From: Verrucomicrobiota bacterium
GTDB taxonomy: Bacteria > Verrucomicrobiota > Verrucomicrobiia > Limisphaerales > UBA11358
NCBI GenBank assembly: GCA_021324235.1
Contig: JAJPJM010000118.1
Coordinates: 1-37,130 of the forward strand
DNA: 37,130 bases
Direction: 5' to 3'
Below the pieces are notes generated by a model. The model made no database searches. It saw only the letters and a list, made by a program, of their open reading frames with translations, and was not told the DNA's origin. Made by a program: the position numbers and the translations under genes. This document shows, piece after piece, positions 9,464 to 22,969 of the stretch (positions are counted from its first letter, which is position 1; every line of letters starts with the position of its first letter).

Positions 9464-10210
9464 TCAGGCTTTACGACGGCGAATCAGCAAACCTGTAAGA
9501 CCAATGCCAGCTCCCATCAGCGCCATAATGGCCGGCTCGGGCACCGGGGCGCCCGACAGAACCACGTTGTTCAAAAATTGGTCCGTTGGGGCGCCGCCAC
9601 CGTTATTGAAGGTAAAGATCAACTGCACATAACTCTCACCACCGGCTTGAATCGCAGGCAGAAGGCTTGAATAGTTATATGATATAGTTTCCGACCGCAC
9701 TGAACCACTCGGCCCGAAATAATAATTGGGCTCTCCACTCGAGTTGTTATCAGTGCCCTGAAGATCAACCGATGTCGTACTCGCCCACGACACGTTGTTG
9801 TAGCCATAACCCGGGGCATTGATCGTCAACGCATAAATCTGTGAATATCCCGTCGTCGATGCAGAAGCTGGAACAGCGAACGTGAACGACAACGTAGTAT
9901 TGTTGTTGAAAGCTGCCAAGTCAGCCGGGATAGTGGGTAAATTTAGCGCTAATTGCTGGCCATAACCTGATGACTGTATTTGAAGACTTTGAGAATAACC
10001 GGTCACGCCAGCAGCGACAAAACTGTATATGCTAGTGTTGGAGGGATCTGTAATCGGATTGTTGTTGGATGGATTATACCACCCTTCAGCCTGGCCAGTT
10101 TGCCAGTTACCAATTACAACTTGCGCTTGTGCTACCGGGGCGGCAAACACTGCCAGTGCAGTTAAAGCCAAACAGCTGATTCCAGTTTTGTGAAGGTAAG
10201 TCATTTTCAT
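9464..10210 (-). CDS. PEP-CTERM sorting-domain secreted protein
   Basis: Secreted protein of 248 residues, no known enzymatic domain. It begins with a signal peptide (about residues 1-29, ending AAPVAQAQ). The body is rich in Asn, Ser, Gly and Tyr with little charge and likely forms a beta-sandwich. It ends with the classic exosortase signal: VPEPAIMALMGAGIGLTGLL followed by RRRKA. Such proteins are cut and sorted at the outer surface by an exosortase (EpsH/Xrt family), often with exopolysaccharide; no exosortase is in this window. It is a single-gene unit with a candidate promoter upstream and a strong terminator downstream. An ATG two codons in (10204) is an equally possible start. Confidence 0.9.
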   Translation of the reverse strand: MKMTYLHKTGISCLALTALAVFAAPVAQAQVVIGNWQTGQAEGWYNPSNNNPITDPSNTSIYSFVAAGVTGYSQSLQIQSSGYGQQLALNLPTIPADLAAFNNNTTLSFTFAVPASASTTGYSQIYALTINAPGYGYNNVSWASTTSVDLQGTDNNSSGEPNYYFGPSGSVRSETISYNYSSLLPAIQAGGESYVQLIFTFNNGGGAPTDQFLNNVVLSGAPVPEPAIMALMGAGIGLTGLLIRRRKA

Positions 10211-15424: not shown

Positions 15425-15975
15425 TCACGGACTGCTGACCTGGTAAAAGGCCGGGCTGACCGAAGCCGTTGTGTCCGTGTACGAGAGCGGACCGCCCGAC
15501 GCTCCACCCGCAGGATAACCCGTGGCGATCACCGGCCATGGGCTGGCAAAGCCGTCCAGAACATTGGTCCTGAAGACCGAATAGGTTGCCCCGGCGGTTG
15601 AATTCCAGGTCAGGATGAACGCCGGCGTGCCAGGATCATATGCAACGTTGGAAATGGTGATGTTGGTCGAGGCCACATAACCCTGTCCCGCAAATGTCAC
15701 CACACTCAGGGCCGGCAGCGCATAAGTAAAGGACGCGTTAGCGACACTGACCGCGGGCTGGCTGGCCAGGGAAAGATTGCTGGAGGTAATCCACGGCGTC
15801 ACCGAACCGGCGGTAAAATTCGTCAGATTAAAAGTTTGGGTCACGACGGTTGAATTTGGATTGATGGCGACGATGGCAAAGTTTCCGGAATTGGTGTCTT
15901 TGTAAGCGCTGATCAAGGCGGCGCTGCCGGTGTTGGCGGCGTCAATGCGATAATAACCCGGGCGCACAAAGCGGC
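15425..15975 (-). repeat. Duplicated GH30 3' segment, copy A
   Basis: The 3' third of the first GH30 gene matches copy B (17133-17690) at the DNA level. Two exact runs found by eye are 43 bases (15786-15828 = 17491-17533) and 35 bases (15673-15707 = 17378-17412), with many shorter ones. The limits are approximate. Confidence 0.85.
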
Positions 15976-17059
15976 TGAACTGGCCGAAAGCAAACAAACG
16001 CTTGGTGATGGAGCCGTTGTTGTCCAGCAGCCCCGAGTTGCCATTCGCGGTGCTGGAAGCCATCAGCCACCAGTAATGGTAGGCGTTGGCCTGCGCCACG
16101 GTCATAAACAGGTGTATCCGCTGGGCATAGTAGATGCCATTGGCGATGCTGCTGTCGCTGCCGGAAAGAATGGCGACTTCGGTTTCCCAGAGCGCCTTCC
16201 CATAACTATTTTTGGTCAACGTCGCCGGCCCATTGACGCCGTCATAATTATGGTCCGCCACAATGCCCACATCTGCCGCGACATTTGGATCCGACATGGC
16301 AGTGGCGGCAAGACCGTGTGGATCCTGCCAGTTTTGACTCTCCGGAAGCATGATCATGGTTGAAGTCAGGTTTTGGGCCAGCAAAGCATTATAAAGATTG
16401 GTTGCAAAATCATGAATCTGGGAACCGGTCCACTGACATGCCTCGTAGTTGGTCACACCGGCATCCGGCTCGTTCTGGATCGAAATGGCGTAGATGTTGA
16501 TGCTGAAAAGGGTCTTCATGATCCTGACATAATTGGCCAACTGGCTGGCATAGGCCAGATTTGTCGCGTTGTTACCACTTCCGAGATAACTGCCGCCGTT
16601 GATTCCGCCGCCGGTGGCATGCTTGGCATCGTAGATGTCGTTGGTACTCTTAAACCCGGCTGCGGGCGTCCACGGGGTACTCCATACTTTGGCCCCAAGC
16701 GTCTGCGCATCCTTCATGATGGTGGTTTCACCCGTGCCCAGCGCTACCGTCGAAGCCGTCGAGTTGGCATAATTGATATGGTTGCGCAGCAGGGAAAGGC
16801 CGATCCCATTGTCGATCGTCGTGGTCCCCAACCGATCCGTGTAAAGGATGCCATTGTTGGTGGAAAAAAACAGATTGGCCTCCGTCGTGGTCCAGGTGGT
16901 CTGCCAGGCAGAAGACGCGCCAAAGCCGTCAATCCGTTGATGCACGTTGTTCCAGTTTACGGTGCAGGTTTGCGCATGGGCTGCCATGAACGCCGTAAAC
17001 GTTATTAACGCCGGCAGAATCATCACCATGCCGGCAAACAATTTTCGAACATTTTTCAC
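15425..17059 (-). CDS. Secreted GH30 xylanase (first copy)
   Basis: Glycoside hydrolase family 30 enzyme of 544 residues, probably a glucurono(arabino)xylan endo-xylanase. The start is a GTG giving a basic signal peptide that ends near AAHAQ; no ATG lies before it in frame, though ATG at residue 11 is an alternative. The catalytic barrel begins HQRIDGFGASSAW. The acid/base is Glu197 in AISIQNEPDA and the nucleophile Glu294 in ALWETEVA. The GH30 side beta-sandwich follows (NFAIVAINPN ... SVVTFAGQGY), then a 75-residue terminal module ending AFYQVSSP. From about SRFVRPGYYRID to the end it is nearly the same as the next gene, while the barrel is quite different. Glucuronate specificity is inferred from context (GH115, CE15); I could not place the recognising Arg. 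Confidence 0.88.
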   Translation of the reverse strand: MKNVRKLFAGMVMILPALITFTAFMAAHAQTCTVNWNNVHQRIDGFGASSAWQTTWTTTEANLFFSTNNGILYTDRLGTTTIDNGIGLSLLRNHINYANSTASTVALGTGETTIMKDAQTLGAKVWSTPWTPAAGFKSTNDIYDAKHATGGGINGGSYLGSGNNATNLAYASQLANYVRIMKTLFSINIYAISIQNEPDAGVTNYEACQWTGSQIHDFATNLYNALLAQNLTSTMIMLPESQNWQDPHGLAATAMSDPNVAADVGIVADHNYDGVNGPATLTKNSYGKALWETEVAILSGSDSSIANGIYYAQRIHLFMTVAQANAYHYWWLMASSTANGNSGLLDNNGSITKRLFAFGQFSRFVRPGYYRIDAANTGSAALISAYKDTNSGNFAIVAINPNSTVVTQTFNLTNFTAGSVTPWITSSNLSLASQPAVSVANASFTYALPALSVVTFAGQGYVASTNITISNVAYDPGTPAFILTWNSTAGATYSVFRTNVLDGFASPWPVIATGYPAGGASGGPLSYTDTTASVSPAFYQVSSP

Positions 17060-17132
17060 TATATAGAACGCCGTTCATGGCTCGATTAAGGACACGGCAC
17101 GAGCACGGCTCCGGGGGGCGGTGTTAATTGAA

Positions 17133-17690
17133 TCACGGGCTGCTCACCCGATAAAACGCCGGGCTCACGGTGGCGGTGGTGTCCGTGTATGAGAGTGGAC
17201 CGCCCGTCGCCCCACCCGCAGGATAACCCGTGCCAATCAGCGGCCATGGGCTGACGGAGCCGCCCAAAATATTTGTCCTGAGCACGGAATAGGTCGCCCC
17301 CGCTGTCGAATTCCAGGTAAGAACAAAGGATCCATTCGGAATATAGGTGGTACTGGAAATAGTAATGTTGGTTGACACCACATAACCCTGTCCCGCAAAT
17401 GTCACCACACTCCAAGCCGGCAGCGTATAAGTGAAGGACGCGTTAGTAACGTTGACCGGTGTCTGGACGGCCAAAGAAAGATTGCTGGAAGTAATCCACG
17501 GCGTCACCGAACCGGCGGTAAAATTCGTCAGATCAAAAGTCTGGGTCATGGCGGTCAAATTGGTATTGACGGCGACGATGGCAAAATTTCCAGAATGGGT
17601 GTCTTTGTAAGCGCTGATCGAAGCCGCAGCCGGATTGCTGTTGGTCACGTCAATTCGATACCAACCCGGGTGTACGAACCGGCTCCACTG
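17133..17690 (-). repeat. Duplicated GH30 3' segment, copy B
   Basis: Partner of copy A at 15425-15975, same orientation, about 1.7 kb away. It covers the side beta-sandwich and terminal module. Similarity falls off sharply once the barrel is entered. Confidence 0.85.
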
Positions 17691-18644
17691 AGCCATGACA
17701 AATCCGCGTATTTGAGGCGCTCCGGATGCATTGACAAGTCCGTTGGCATCGCCCAGGCATTTCCACCAGATATAGGCGCTAAAGTTGCCAATTGTCAGGC
17801 AATCGTGAATCTGTTGAGCCGTGGTGATGGCTGTACTGATGGTTTGGTCATTTACGAGAAACTCTGTCATCCATGTCGGCTTGCTATGGTTGTGGGCATT
17901 GGGATAGTCCACAATGGGAACTGCGTTAGTGCCGGATCCGTAAAGATGCTCGCCGATGTAGGTCACATTGCCGACGGCCACGGGATCGTTGAGGGTTGGA
18001 TCGGACATGGCCTGGTTGTACGATGCGGATTCCGGCATGATGACCGGCGCGTTGGTAATCAACCCGGCAACGTTATGACAGAAGGTCTGGAGTTGTGTAG
18101 GGGTCCAACCACACCCTTCATAAGTGGTAGGCACAAAATCCGGTTCATTCTGGAGTGATATGGCTTTGAGCGGCGCTCCGTTTGCCGCCATATAGCCGGC
18201 AAAGTAATTCAGGTAATTTGCATAATTCGTGTACTGCGACGCCAGTAACGAGCCGCCGATGATACTGTTGGTGGTTTTCATTCCCGCCGGCGGCGTCCAG
18301 GGCGTTGCCAAAACTCCGGCGCCGCGCGCGACGGCTCCCTGGCCGTCCTGGAGTGCGGCAGCCCAATTGGTTGTCGGGTCGATGCGGATACGGAGAAGCG
18401 TAAGTCCCAGTTGATTGGTATTATTGGTGCCGAACAGGGTGTCCATATTGGGACTGGTGACCGGATCGAGCGTGCCCGGATTCAAAAACACCACGCCGCC
18501 GCCGAAGCCATCAATTCGCTGATGCAAATTATTCCAATCCACGACGCCCACGCCAGCGGCACAACACCGCGCGACGACGAACCAGAAAAGCATGACAGGC
18601 GACATCCACCGGCAAAACCAAGCATTACTGACGATCGTTTTCAT
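17133..18644 (-). CDS. Secreted GH30 glucuronoxylanase-like enzyme (second copy)
   Basis: A 503-residue GH30 protein directly upstream of the first copy on the same strand (73 bases apart). The signal peptide is unusual, with Trp/Cys near its end (MLFWFVVARCCAAG). The barrel starts HQRIDGFGGGVVF. The acid/base is Glu167 in AISLQNEPDF and the nucleophile Glu261 in PTWMTEFLV; both contexts resemble subfamily 8 glucuronoxylanases, which need a methylglucuronate branch. The C-terminal beta-sandwich and the terminal module (TWNSTAGATYSVLRTN ... AFYRVSSP) are nearly identical to copy A. A good ribosome site, AGGAGT, sits 5 bases before the ATG. The pair probably arose by tandem duplication with divergence of the barrel, giving two cutting preferences. 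Confidence 0.9.
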   Translation of the reverse strand: MKTIVSNAWFCRWMSPVMLFWFVVARCCAAGVGVVDWNNLHQRIDGFGGGVVFLNPGTLDPVTSPNMDTLFGTNNTNQLGLTLLRIRIDPTTNWAAALQDGQGAVARGAGVLATPWTPPAGMKTTNSIIGGSLLASQYTNYANYLNYFAGYMAANGAPLKAISLQNEPDFVPTTYEGCGWTPTQLQTFCHNVAGLITNAPVIMPESASYNQAMSDPTLNDPVAVGNVTYIGEHLYGSGTNAVPIVDYPNAHNHSKPTWMTEFLVNDQTISTAITTAQQIHDCLTIGNFSAYIWWKCLGDANGLVNASGAPQIRGFVMAQWSRFVHPGWYRIDVTNSNPAAASISAYKDTHSGNFAIVAVNTNLTAMTQTFDLTNFTAGSVTPWITSSNLSLAVQTPVNVTNASFTYTLPAWSVVTFAGQGYVVSTNITISSTTYIPNGSFVLTWNSTAGATYSVLRTNILGGSVSPWPLIGTGYPAGGATGGPLSYTDTTATVSPAFYRVSSP

Positions 18645-18738
18645 TTTTAACTCCTGCCATATGTTCCCGGAGAAGAAGCATGGGTGCTTCCATGGGAGAA
18701 TTCAGCATTAAAAAGATCGGCGATTTATTCGATAAACT

Positions 18739-18777
18739 AAAAGGCCGACGGACAATACAACATACTGTCCGTCGGCC
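18739..18777 (-). terminator. Strong hairpin terminator after the LamG-domain gene
   Basis: A perfect 12-bp stem, GGCCGACGGACA / TGTCCGTCGGCC, with an 11-nt loop, followed on the minus strand by TTTT. It lies about 50 bases past the stop of the LamG-type gene and before the GH30 pair, so the GH30 genes probably have their own promoter. Confidence 0.85.
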
Positions 18778-18825
18778 ATGTTATTTAACATCTATTATCT
18801 ATTGCGGTTTCTATCCGCGCATTAA

Positions 18826-21351
18826 TTACGGCCAAGTAATGCGATAGTACGCCGCATTGGCACTGCCCACCGTGCTATCGGTGAAGCTCGTGGTCGCCCC
18901 GCCAGTCGGCAAGCCATTCGTCAGAGTGACCCACGTGGGCGTGGCCAGATTAAACGTACGTTGCACCGAGTAGGTGTTGGTCTGGAACATCGAGCCAAGC
19001 GAATTCCAATTGATGCTTACGCTTACACCATTGGTCGTGACCGAGCGAGCAACGGAGTTCAGGTTGAACAACCTGGGGATCGTTGAATCGTAACCATTCG
19101 CGCTCAAATAGAAGTCATCCAATAAGAGCATGTTGTTGGTTTCGAAGAAGGCGCCATTTGCCGCCGTCGTGATGTCTTCGTTGGCGACACCCATGAACAC
19201 CTTGTCCAAGTAGGGCGTCGGCGTATCCACGGCCGGATTGGCACCGTCATAGTCTCGATCTCCATGGAAACCCGAAAACAGGAGCGTCCGGGTGGGATCA
19301 CCCTGCTTTTGCAGCCAAACTGCATACACCGGTTCCTGAACCGTGTTGCTAGTGCCAGAGATGATTGCGATATGAGTGTTGTCATTCGAAACATCCATCC
19401 AGCAATAATAGGTCACATTGGTCTGCAAGCCATTCGCATTAACCGAAGTCACATAGGAATACGAATTGGTGACCGAAGTACCGCCGTAATCCGCAGCCTG
19501 CAAGTCAAAAGGCATGTTGGGCCCAAAGGCGCCGCTGGGATCATAGTGGACGATTCGCACGGCCGGGCCGTACGTTCCAGCACCGCCCGGAGGCGAGGTG
19601 CCACCGAGAGGGCCAGTGCTGCCAAAACCATAATCGCTCAAGCCCAATGCGAAATCCAATCCGCTGTAAAGTGGAATACTTGCATAACTTCCGGGATCGG
19701 TAAGCGAGAACCGGAAGAACAGCGTGGTTGTCTGATACGGAGGAATGGTCAGATGACCCAACTGTCCGTACGCCAGCGCGCCGGGTGAATCATGACCAAT
19801 CGAAATGCTATTATCAGTCTTGTAACCGCTCTTTGGCGACAGAACCTTGTTGCCATTCACTGTCACCACGTTAAACCGGTCCATGGTCCCCTGATAATAA
19901 CCTTGCACACCCACCCAGTCATTGCCTTGGATTCCCTGGGTGGTATTTCCAAACACGCCATCGAACCGTTGGATCAAATTCCAGTCCGACGGAACGCCAG
20001 CGAAGGTTTGAACAGTAACCGAGGCTTGCTGATCCGCCGCGATGCCATTATGGGCCACCAGCGTAAATGTGTAGCTGGCGTTGTTACCCAAGGTCACAGT
20101 TGTTGAACCAACAGAGGTCGCACTCACATCGCCTACTCCACCACTGATGACAATGCCACCGGGGGTGTTATTGGCGCCCGTTACGTTCCAATTTAGGGTG
20201 ACTGTGTGATTTTTCCCGATTTCAGCCAGGCCCGCAGTGAAGCTGCCAATTATGACGACGTTCGTATTGACTGACAGGGCGAACACTCCATTGGTGTTCA
20301 TTCCGTTGGTCATGACGAATTGTATTTCGTTGGTGTTCAGAACGCGGTTCCAGTATCCAATGTCGCTAACCTGCTCGACCAGACCGCCGGAGAAAGCGTT
20401 GTTGCGAATGAAACCACCAAAAGCGGTGTCCCCACTCTTGCACATGTTCGACATCCATCGCACAAAACCATTCGGAGGTGGATTGGACGAACCGACAAAC
20501 GGATAAATGTTGGTCGTGTAATAGGTGTTCGTCACATTTAGCGGCGGGCCGATGGCAGGGTTACCCTCATGATCGGTGTACGGGCCGCCACTTTGCAAAC
20601 CCGGATCATAATTGCCATCCACGAACACATGAAAATCGCCGTTGGTGTCAATGGTGGTTGTGAGCATGTGCCAATTGCCGTCCAGCACCGGATTGGCGAC
20701 GGAAGTATTTTGGCTGCCTTGATTATATTCATACGCCACGTTCGGAAGCTGATAAGTACCATCATCCAACTGCTGGCAGGCAACCCCGTTGGGGTCAGTC
20801 GCCTGACCTGCGGGATCGTCCCGGAAGAAATAATTTGCTTGACCATTGCCGGGTTTGCCGCTGACCGAGTAAAACGGCTGGCTGTCCCCGTTATTGGCGC
20901 ATTCCGCGAAAATTCGCAGTTCGCCGGCGATGTTAGAAGCGTTGGCCTTGACCCAGAAGTTCATAGTCGCGCCGCGCTGGTCGATGAAGGGCAGAAAATC
21001 ACCCGAACCATCCAACGGATTCTGTCCGGTGGTGCGATAGTAGATGAGCGTGGTGCCCGGGGATTGGTTGAAATTGAAGGCCAAGCCGGCCGGTTCAATG
21101 CCTGGATGGCTCGCGGCCACGATGTTGGCGGCGGTCATTCCGGACAAGGTCATATCACGCCGGTTGATATAATCGGGCGTGGCATTGGTATTGCCGGGTG
21201 CAAGCCCGTTCAGTGGGTAGTAGTCAACCAGGCCGTTGGTTATCTGCTGGAAGGTAACCTGCGCCTGACTGGTGTTTATGAAAGCGGCCAATGCCGCCAA
21301 CAGAGCTGCCAGCATAACGGCAGAGGGATGTTTTTGAGTTGGGTTTTTCAT
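18826..21351 (-). CDS. Large secreted LamG-type (concanavalin-like) protein
   Basis: An 841-residue secreted protein of unknown function. A signal peptide (to about residue 30, INTSQAQ) is followed by a LamG/concanavalin-like region (about 35-355: GLVDYYPLNG, ATMNFWVKAN, GNWHMLTTTIDTNGDFHVFVDG). Residues about 360-455 look like an Ig-like domain (HTVTLNWNVTG, NASYTFTLVAHN). A second beta-rich region (about 460-760) begins WNLIQRFDGVFG and could be another jelly roll. The last 75 residues (TYSVQRTFNL ... AAYYRITWP) are the same kind of terminal module as in both GH30 proteins. No catalytic motif is seen. A polysaccharide-binding or surface-attachment role in xylan use is plausible. It is flanked by its own terminator and by a pseudopilin gene upstream. 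Confidence 0.8.
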   Translation of the reverse strand: MKNPTQKHPSAVMLAALLAALAAFINTSQAQVTFQQITNGLVDYYPLNGLAPGNTNATPDYINRRDMTLSGMTAANIVAASHPGIEPAGLAFNFNQSPGTTLIYYRTTGQNPLDGSGDFLPFIDQRGATMNFWVKANASNIAGELRIFAECANNGDSQPFYSVSGKPGNGQANYFFRDDPAGQATDPNGVACQQLDDGTYQLPNVAYEYNQGSQNTSVANPVLDGNWHMLTTTIDTNGDFHVFVDGNYDPGLQSGGPYTDHEGNPAIGPPLNVTNTYYTTNIYPFVGSSNPPPNGFVRWMSNMCKSGDTAFGGFIRNNAFSGGLVEQVSDIGYWNRVLNTNEIQFVMTNGMNTNGVFALSVNTNVVIIGSFTAGLAEIGKNHTVTLNWNVTGANNTPGGIVISGGVGDVSATSVGSTTVTLGNNASYTFTLVAHNGIAADQQASVTVQTFAGVPSDWNLIQRFDGVFGNTTQGIQGNDWVGVQGYYQGTMDRFNVVTVNGNKVLSPKSGYKTDNSISIGHDSPGALAYGQLGHLTIPPYQTTTLFFRFSLTDPGSYASIPLYSGLDFALGLSDYGFGSTGPLGGTSPPGGAGTYGPAVRIVHYDPSGAFGPNMPFDLQAADYGGTSVTNSYSYVTSVNANGLQTNVTYYCWMDVSNDNTHIAIISGTSNTVQEPVYAVWLQKQGDPTRTLLFSGFHGDRDYDGANPAVDTPTPYLDKVFMGVANEDITTAANGAFFETNNMLLLDDFYLSANGYDSTIPRLFNLNSVARSVTTNGVSVSINWNSLGSMFQTNTYSVQRTFNLATPTWVTLTNGLPTGGATTSFTDSTVGSANAAYYRITWP

Positions 21352-21426: not shown

Positions 21427-22365
21427 TTAATAAAACCAATAGTTTCCGCCTTGAAAATACGCACTCTTCACCTGGCCCAAGCTATGGCTTATCACGTGCC
21501 CGTCGGCAAATCCCAGATTGATCGGGTTAAACGAACCGCTGTTGAAGTGGCCCGTATCGGGGGAAATATTGTTCGGATCCGGCGACCCCGCCAGCTTCGA
21601 ATGCAAGCCGCCCGCCTGGCCCGACCCGGCGGTGTCACTGATGAACGGAACCATCGGCACCGCCTTATCCGTCATCTTGGTCGCCCAGCCATAAATGGCG
21701 CAAGTGGGGTACTGTTGCTTGAGCCAACTCGGCCAGAGGGCATAAATCTGCTTGGAGTAATCCGTCGGAAATATCGGCTGGCCAGGTGTGTAAACCAATA
21801 AATTCTGGCGTGGCACCCAATAATTGTAGCCGCCAGTCCAGCTAATCTCTTGCGGGAAATTCCTGGCAAAATATGAAATCACATTGGTGATATTCATCGG
21901 GTCGGCCAGCGGGTTCGGAGCCGGGTATGTTTGTTGCACCCAGGTTGCATACGCGGAAAACCCGGCCGGACGGACGGGGTCAAACCACATGGGCACGTTC
22001 AAATTATACGGCTTCAGCAATTCCGGCATCTGCGTGCCTATGTCCCAGGCATACGAGCCGCCGCCGGCTGGATTGGAACCCGGTTCTTTGCATGGCAGGT
22101 ACTCCTGGTTATCTCCCGAGTACAGGTTGGCTACGATTCCCCACTGCCTGAGATTTGAAGTGCAATTGATCATCCTGGCGCGGAACTTGGCGCTGGCCAA
22201 GGCCGGCAGGAGCATGGCCGCCAATATGGCAATAATGGCAATGACCACCAGAAGCTCAATCAGCGTAAAAGCGTTTTTGCCCTTACATTCGGGGCGCCCC
22301 GAATGCACACCGACCGCCTTGTTGCTTTCGGCAGACGAGATGGAAAAAGACTCTGGCTGGGTCAT
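21427..22365 (-). CDS. Type II secretion/pilin-like pseudopilin with prepilin cleavage motif
   Basis: A pseudopilin of about 312 residues. After a leader of about 31 residues comes the prepilin peptidase site and hydrophobic helix, [20 protein letters not shown], with the conserved Glu at position 5 after cleavage. The globular part is rich in Pro, Trp and Tyr and ends with [11 protein letters not shown], the C-terminal motif common in the very large verrucomicrobial and planctomycete pseudopilin families. The track start at 22578 would overlap the AraC gene. The ATGs at 22365 and 22434 are both possible; I chose 22365 because the leader is already long, with moderate confidence. It lies 75 bases before the LamG-type gene on the same strand. 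Whether it assembles into a secretion pseudopilus is unknown. Confidence 0.82.
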
Positions 22366-22459
22366 ATCTTGTGGATTTCTCTCTAATATAACATTTTGAG
22401 CTCTTTTGGGAATGGACAATGCTATGATTTTCATTGAATTTAATTTTGATTGTATTTTT

Positions 22460-22969
22460 TTATTCGAATTGAATGCGTCTCGAGTTCCTTTTTGCCTGAG
22501 GGCCGGCGGGTAAATCTGCGCCGTCCGGACCGGCTCCGGATTTGCAGGCCCTTGTTTGACGGTATTCGGTGGGCGCAAGCTGGTTCACGGATTTAAAAAC
22601 ACGTGAAAAATAGAACGGATCATCGTAACCCAGCGCCGCGGCGACTTCCTTGACGTTCAAGGACGTGCTTTCGAACAGCCGGCATGCCTGTTGCATGCGC
22701 AAGTGAATGAAATAATCAATGGGCGGACATCCCATCCAGCGTTTGAACAACGCTGAATAGTGCGAGGGGGAAAAGTTCACGGCCGCGGCCAGGGTGGCCA
22801 CCTGCAGCGGCTGGTTCAGGTGCTCTAACATGTAGGAAATACTCTGTTCGATTTTCCGCGCGGTGCGCGAGCCGGCGCTATCGCCCGCAACCGGCCCATC
22901 GTGTTCAACAAGAACGCCAACCCACCGATGGCCGTTGGTTGGCAGCCGCTCAATTCCATTACTTTTCAT
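22460..22969 (-). CDS. Short AraC-family transcriptional regulator (DNA-binding domain only)
   Basis: A 169-residue protein that is mostly an AraC/XylS DNA-binding domain (about 35-138): [24 protein letters not shown] is the first helix-turn-helix and [21 protein letters not shown] the second. Usual family members carry an N-terminal sugar-sensing cupin or other sensor and are near 290 residues; here only about 35 residues precede the domain. An in-frame TGA lies two codons before the ATG, so no upstream extension is possible without a frameshift, and I saw no remnant sensor in the 470 bases upstream. It is the only transcription factor in the xylan region and is a candidate local regulator, perhaps working with a separate sensor. 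Confidence 0.9.

Follow-up and report, generated by a model that had tools for sequence, protein, structure and literature searches.

A homologous module that terminates three exported proteins encoded in the 37,130-nucleotide stretch of Verrucomicrobiota DNA analysed here (the window) is real, recurs across the phylum, is strictly C-terminal and derives from the fibronectin type III (FN3) domain. Judging from its sequence and distribution, the module appears, on balance, to be a sorting or anchoring domain of Verrucomicrobiota. The tail occupies the very end of about 60 exported proteins of this bacterium, and of many more across the phylum, and is therefore probably an uncatalogued sorting signal.

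Three Tailed Proteins in a Xylan Locus

The window includes a glucuronoxylan-use locus that encodes GDSL and glucuronoyl esterases, a SASA esterase, two GH30 XynC-like xylanases, a LamG-like protein, a prepilin-like protein, UxuA, GH115, GH8, GH3, GH116, PfkB and GH52. According to an earlier note on this DNA, both GH30 proteins and the LamG-like protein share a C-terminal module of about 75 residues that the esterases, GH115 and GH8 of the locus lack. Both statements hold: the three tails align over about 75 residues, and a whole-genome profile search yields exactly three places on this contig, none of them in another window protein. The respective features are as follows.

15425..17059, minus strand: GH30 a (glucuronoarabinoxylan endoxylanase XynC-like), 544 aa, signal peptide, C-terminal module (NCBIfam NF052681, E=6e-46)
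15428..15655, minus strand: FYR module of GH30 a, end AFYQVSSP-stop (profile A2, E=9.5e-20)
15428..15916, minus strand: C-terminal segment of GH30 a (GH30 beta-sandwich and module), homogenised with GH30 b (identity comparison)
17133..18644, minus strand: GH30 b (XynC-like), 503 aa, signal peptide, C-terminal module (NCBIfam NF052681, E=4e-83)
17136..17363, minus strand: FYR module of GH30 b, end AFYRVSSP-stop (profile match and AF2 model)
17136..17621, minus strand: corresponding homogenised segment of GH30 b (identity comparison)
18826..21351, minus strand: LamG-like exported protein, 841 aa, signal peptide, C-terminal module (ORF and Pfam search)
18829..19059, minus strand: FYR module of the LamG-like protein, end AYYRITWP-stop (profile match and AF2 model)

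The stop follows the YR or YQ at a distance of four residues (FYQVSSP-stop, FYRVSSP-stop, YYRITWP-stop), not within three as previously stated. GH30 a scores slightly below the cut-off of Pfam Glyco_hydr_30_2. The designation "LamG-type" is poorly supported: a Pfam search of the window protein gives no family, and its paralogue on contig C141, which is 79% identical and also carries the module, reaches Laminin_G_3 only below the cut-off.

Identity between the tandem GH30s is about 40% in the catalytic parts and about 80% at the amino acid level (70–89% at the nucleotide level) in the last ~165 residues, which suggests that gene conversion or recombination homogenised the C-terminal thirds of the two genes. 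Because of this homogenisation, the GH30 pair represents one event and one observation; the LamG-like tail, 36% identical to a GH30 tail over 70 aa (E = 1e-6), is the independent one among the three.

Within the locus, the endo-acting GH30s are tailed, and the GH115 and esterases with signal peptides, as well as a lipoprotein-like GH8, are without the module. A prepilin-type protein (21427-22578, minus strand) adjoins the tailed genes. A GH30 from another family (genome G104) ends in a similar tail that follows other inserted domains, and GH30 relatives elsewhere are without the tail; given this variation, the module is optional. One GH30 (L170), from a genome with no module matches (G029), terminates in a repeated domain of another kind (..LVEVYNAR), which may constitute a further terminal class.

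The Module in the Source Genome and across the Phylum

Used as queries against the 3.1 Mb source genome, the three window tails hit 24 places, of which the real ones almost all form the extreme end of an ORF. A profile built from 20 tails gave 73 matches, for 71 of which the stop is in view. The distance to the stop is at most 7 residues in 62 of these 71, compared with about 1.6 expected by random placement; the other nine lie inside the protein, and in three of these cases the protein has a terminal copy as well. Thus, the module is not found equally often inside proteins, and the C-terminal bias anticipated in the earlier note is borne out. The consensus of the module terminus is FYR-V-x-x-P-stop, with FYR or a similar triplet 4–5 aa before the stop in 52 of the 62 terminal modules; the last residue is proline in 36 and glutamine in 13 of the 62. 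The composition is poor in Lys and Cys.

The carriers are exported rather than cytoplasmic, again as had been expected: at least 47 of the 53 readable N-termini resemble signal peptides, with 47 passing a crude test for a hydrophobic core and another four recognised by eye, and none of the 53 contains a lipobox. The cargo includes enzymes (GH13, GH18, GH43+CBM6, GH57, GH64, astacin, cyclophilin) along with a multihaem cytochrome and kelch, beta-helix, LRR, RCC1 and Ig/MBG proteins, and is mutually unrelated apart from the module. Hence the claim of a tail common to unrelated proteins stands genome-wide, with the reservation that the two GH30 tails of the window are not independent. Glutamine is frequent just after the predicted signal-peptide cleavage site of the tailed proteins in this genome (a crude rule counts 14 of 46, and inspection by eye more), which recalls the "Q-rule" of Bacteroidetes.

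Two peptide patterns, scanned against 84,980 species, produced 13 confirmed relatives, all from Verrucomicrobiota and 12 of them strictly C-terminal. These named relatives also point to Verrucomicrobiota as the phylum of the window itself. Among 145 genomes drawn from the phylum, 51 have module matches, with counts that reach 41 per genome. When the best locus was taken from each of 28 other genomes of the phylum, 27 of the 28 proved strictly C-terminal, and 15 of these 27 modules end in proline.

Relationship to Fibronectin Type III Domains

The tails match no family in Pfam and NCBIfam, and specifically show no direct match to PF00041. The module profile, in contrast, matches a solved FN3-like protein (PDB 3mpc, E=5e-6), and profile-profile comparison with the FN3 domains of the same genome gives 84% probability (E=7e-6). 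The module aligns with FN3 columns 12–68 of 82, so that the alignment ends before the FG loop and strand G. AlphaFold models of two of the modules are all-beta, with a last strand that runs to the C-terminus: seven strands for GH30 b (pLDDT 84.7), the last one ending one residue before the C-terminus, and six for the LamG-like protein (pLDDT 80.9), with the last strand at positions 79–83 of 85. The best structural matches in Foldseek are FN3/Ig folds (TM 0.60–0.67, with E-values that are not significant). The profile also partially matches chitosan/glucan-binding modules in PDB (E 1e-4). The module accordingly is a distant FN3 relative that ends after strand F and is devoid of strand G. An ordinary FN3 domain without C-terminal bias, which would have refuted the reading of the earlier note, is rejected: the eight ordinary domains of the source genome all lie inside their proteins (0 of 8 terminal) and as a rule extend into strand G.

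Exchange with PEP-CTERM and the Search for Machinery

With regard to function, the most telling observation is a natural swap on contig C158 (G000:C158:6853-9500, loci L095 and L190). The bodies of two adjacent paralogues (C158:6853 and C158:7812) are 45% identical over 245 aa (E=2e-65) and diverge exactly at the junction, after which one protein ends in PEP-CTERM and the other in the FYR module. This is the one exact case in which the module is interchangeable with a known sorting signal among homologues. A further pair with homologous bodies (G000:C84:17154 and C84:24161) consists of a PEP-CTERM protein and a long protein with the FYR module, with an inexact junction.

PEP-CTERM combines a short PEP motif, a transmembrane helix and a basic cluster (PMC1569441); none of these was found in the tail sequences. 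The source genome has about 19 PEP-CTERM matches side by side with the module. One PEP-CTERM protein lies within the window (9464-10210, minus strand). The genome also encodes an exosortase (G000:C77:5055-5663, E=1.5e-28), an enzyme present in 50 of the 51 tail genomes versus 51 of the 94 others (Fisher 3e-9, phylogeny ignored). This association is explained at least in part by the separate PEP-CTERM proteins and is confounded by phylogeny, so that exosortase was rejected as the tail machinery.

No export machinery for the tails was found among the type IX secretion system (T9SS), GspG of the type II system (T2SS), H-X9-DG prepilins and exosortase. The tails do not match the T9SS tail models TIGR04183/PF18962, and TIGR04183 never exceeded the cut-off in nine tail-rich genomes, although the same model yielded 24 matches in a plasmid of Persicobacter (Bacteroidota) as a positive control; identity with the T9SS tail is rejected accordingly. 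SprA was detected in none of the 145 genomes in a search run without a positive control. A Bacteroidota GH30 for which a T9SS tail was expected turned out to resemble a lipoprotein and to have no such tail. Genomes outside the FCB group are stated to lack T9SS genes (PMC11285876). GspG shows a weak association (41 of 51 tail genomes versus 57 of 94 others), and in several tail-rich genomes (at least 37 tails; e.g., G069, G100 and G120) no GspG reaches the strict threshold of E<=1e-25, which argues against T2SS as the sole machine. Some tailless families of the phylum have enormous numbers of H-X9-DG pseudopilins or prepilins; these proteins do not follow the tails well and were likewise dismissed as a partner.

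Possible Functions of the Module

The earlier note suggested sorting, anchoring or secretion, and such a role is one that we also infer, with strong support from the terminal position, the cargo, the signal peptides, the recurrence in the phylum and the PEP-CTERM swap; the failure to find machinery, the nine internal matches among 71 and the restriction to a single exact swap count against it. Under the mechanism that we propose, the module would be an incomplete FN3-like beta-sandwich comprising strands A to F without G, the last strand bearing [FY]-[FY]-R and the stop lying 4–5 residues further on, often at a proline. The Sec signal peptide would take the tailed proteins across the inner membrane, where the folded terminal module may be recognised by a periplasmic or outer-membrane component, perhaps by strand augmentation at the open edge of strand F. 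This putative receptor would then export the cargo or fix it on the cell surface or matrix. More tentatively, the module might be the cargo signal of an undescribed outer-membrane export or anchoring system of Verrucomicrobiota that handles dozens of extracellular proteins per genome, a possibility that falls short of being probable.

The main rival to a sorting or anchoring role, rather unlikely in our estimate, is a passive C-terminal cap. In this view, the tail would be a small domain of FN3 origin that makes extracellular enzymes more stable and shields their C-terminus against tail-specific proteases and carboxypeptidases; the terminal Pro or Gln would contribute, and no receptor would be involved. 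The Lys- and Cys-poor composition, the terminal proline (36 of 62 and 15 of 27), the FN3-like fold and the failure to find machinery are compatible with a cap, which however leaves unexplained the module's exact substitution for PEP-CTERM in a paralogue, the absence of lipoproteins among the carriers and the equally exported enzymes of the same locus that are without the module.

The numerous CAZymes among the cargo and the partial match to chitosan/glucan-binding modules (E 1e-4) could alternatively indicate a glycan- or matrix-binding module (CBM/FN3-like), last in the protein by chance, through which enzymes and adhesins attach to polysaccharide or to exopolysaccharide made by the cell itself. 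This is improbable because CBMs normally reside at either end of proteins or inside them, the cargo also includes cyclophilin, astacin, cytochromes, LRR and RCC1 proteins, and the chitosan-binding match covers only part of a fold whose best structural matches are FN3/Ig.

Strand-exchange docking, in which modules or partners would complete each other's sandwich in place of strand G and so build surface polymers, as in the donor-strand complementation of pilins, fits the alignment that stops at column 68 and the predicted last strand that reaches the C-terminus. It is nonetheless very improbable, as the AF2 monomer is confident without a partner strand and no donor strand was identified. Finally, a chance resemblance or plain paralogy among three adjacent genes, to which the two GH30 paralogues with their homogenised C-termini might point, is virtually eliminated by the genome-wide search: 73 matches sit on unrelated proteins, and 51 of 145 genomes of the phylum have the module as well.

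The sorting or anchoring role, if correct, bears on the biology of major polysaccharide degraders, as Verrucomicrobiota are. In the literature searched, the module is not described, and neither is any such C-terminal signal or a dedicated export route for the extracellular enzymes of Verrucomicrobiota. Recognisable tails on about 60 proteins in one genome directly mark candidates for surface or secreted proteins, and their distribution provides a phylogenetic profile for hunting the machinery; partial phylogenetic profiling was used for PEP-CTERM/EpsH (PMC1569441).

Comparison with Known Systems

The module shares with FN3 (PF00041) profile-profile homology, the 3mpc match and the fold, but is without the FG loop and strand G, is confined to C-termini and is missed by the Pfam model. 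Like PEP-CTERM, it recurs as a homologous C-terminal domain among numerous exported proteins that are otherwise unrelated and occurs at the same junction in a paralogue, and it differs in being a folded domain without a transmembrane helix. The many-to-one logic of a C-terminal signal is also that of GlyGly-CTERM/rhombosortase, where the signal is a membrane-anchoring C-terminal segment rather than a beta domain; homologues are known in which GlyGly-CTERM stands in place of another sorting signal, e.g., PEP-CTERM (PMC3237569).

In its logic, the module resembles the C-terminal domain of T9SS (TIGR04183/Por_Secre_tail), which similarly consists of ~70–80 residues with an Ig-like all-beta fold and conserved C-terminal residues and occupies a strictly C-terminal position on dozens of otherwise unrelated proteins per genome that have signal peptides, CAZymes and peptidases among them. 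It is, however, not a member of that family: the sequence family is different, and the module is FN3-like, not the seven-stranded, 3+4 domain of T9SS (PMC11285876). The possible export or anchoring system of Verrucomicrobiota would be functionally parallel, yet unrelated, to T9SS.
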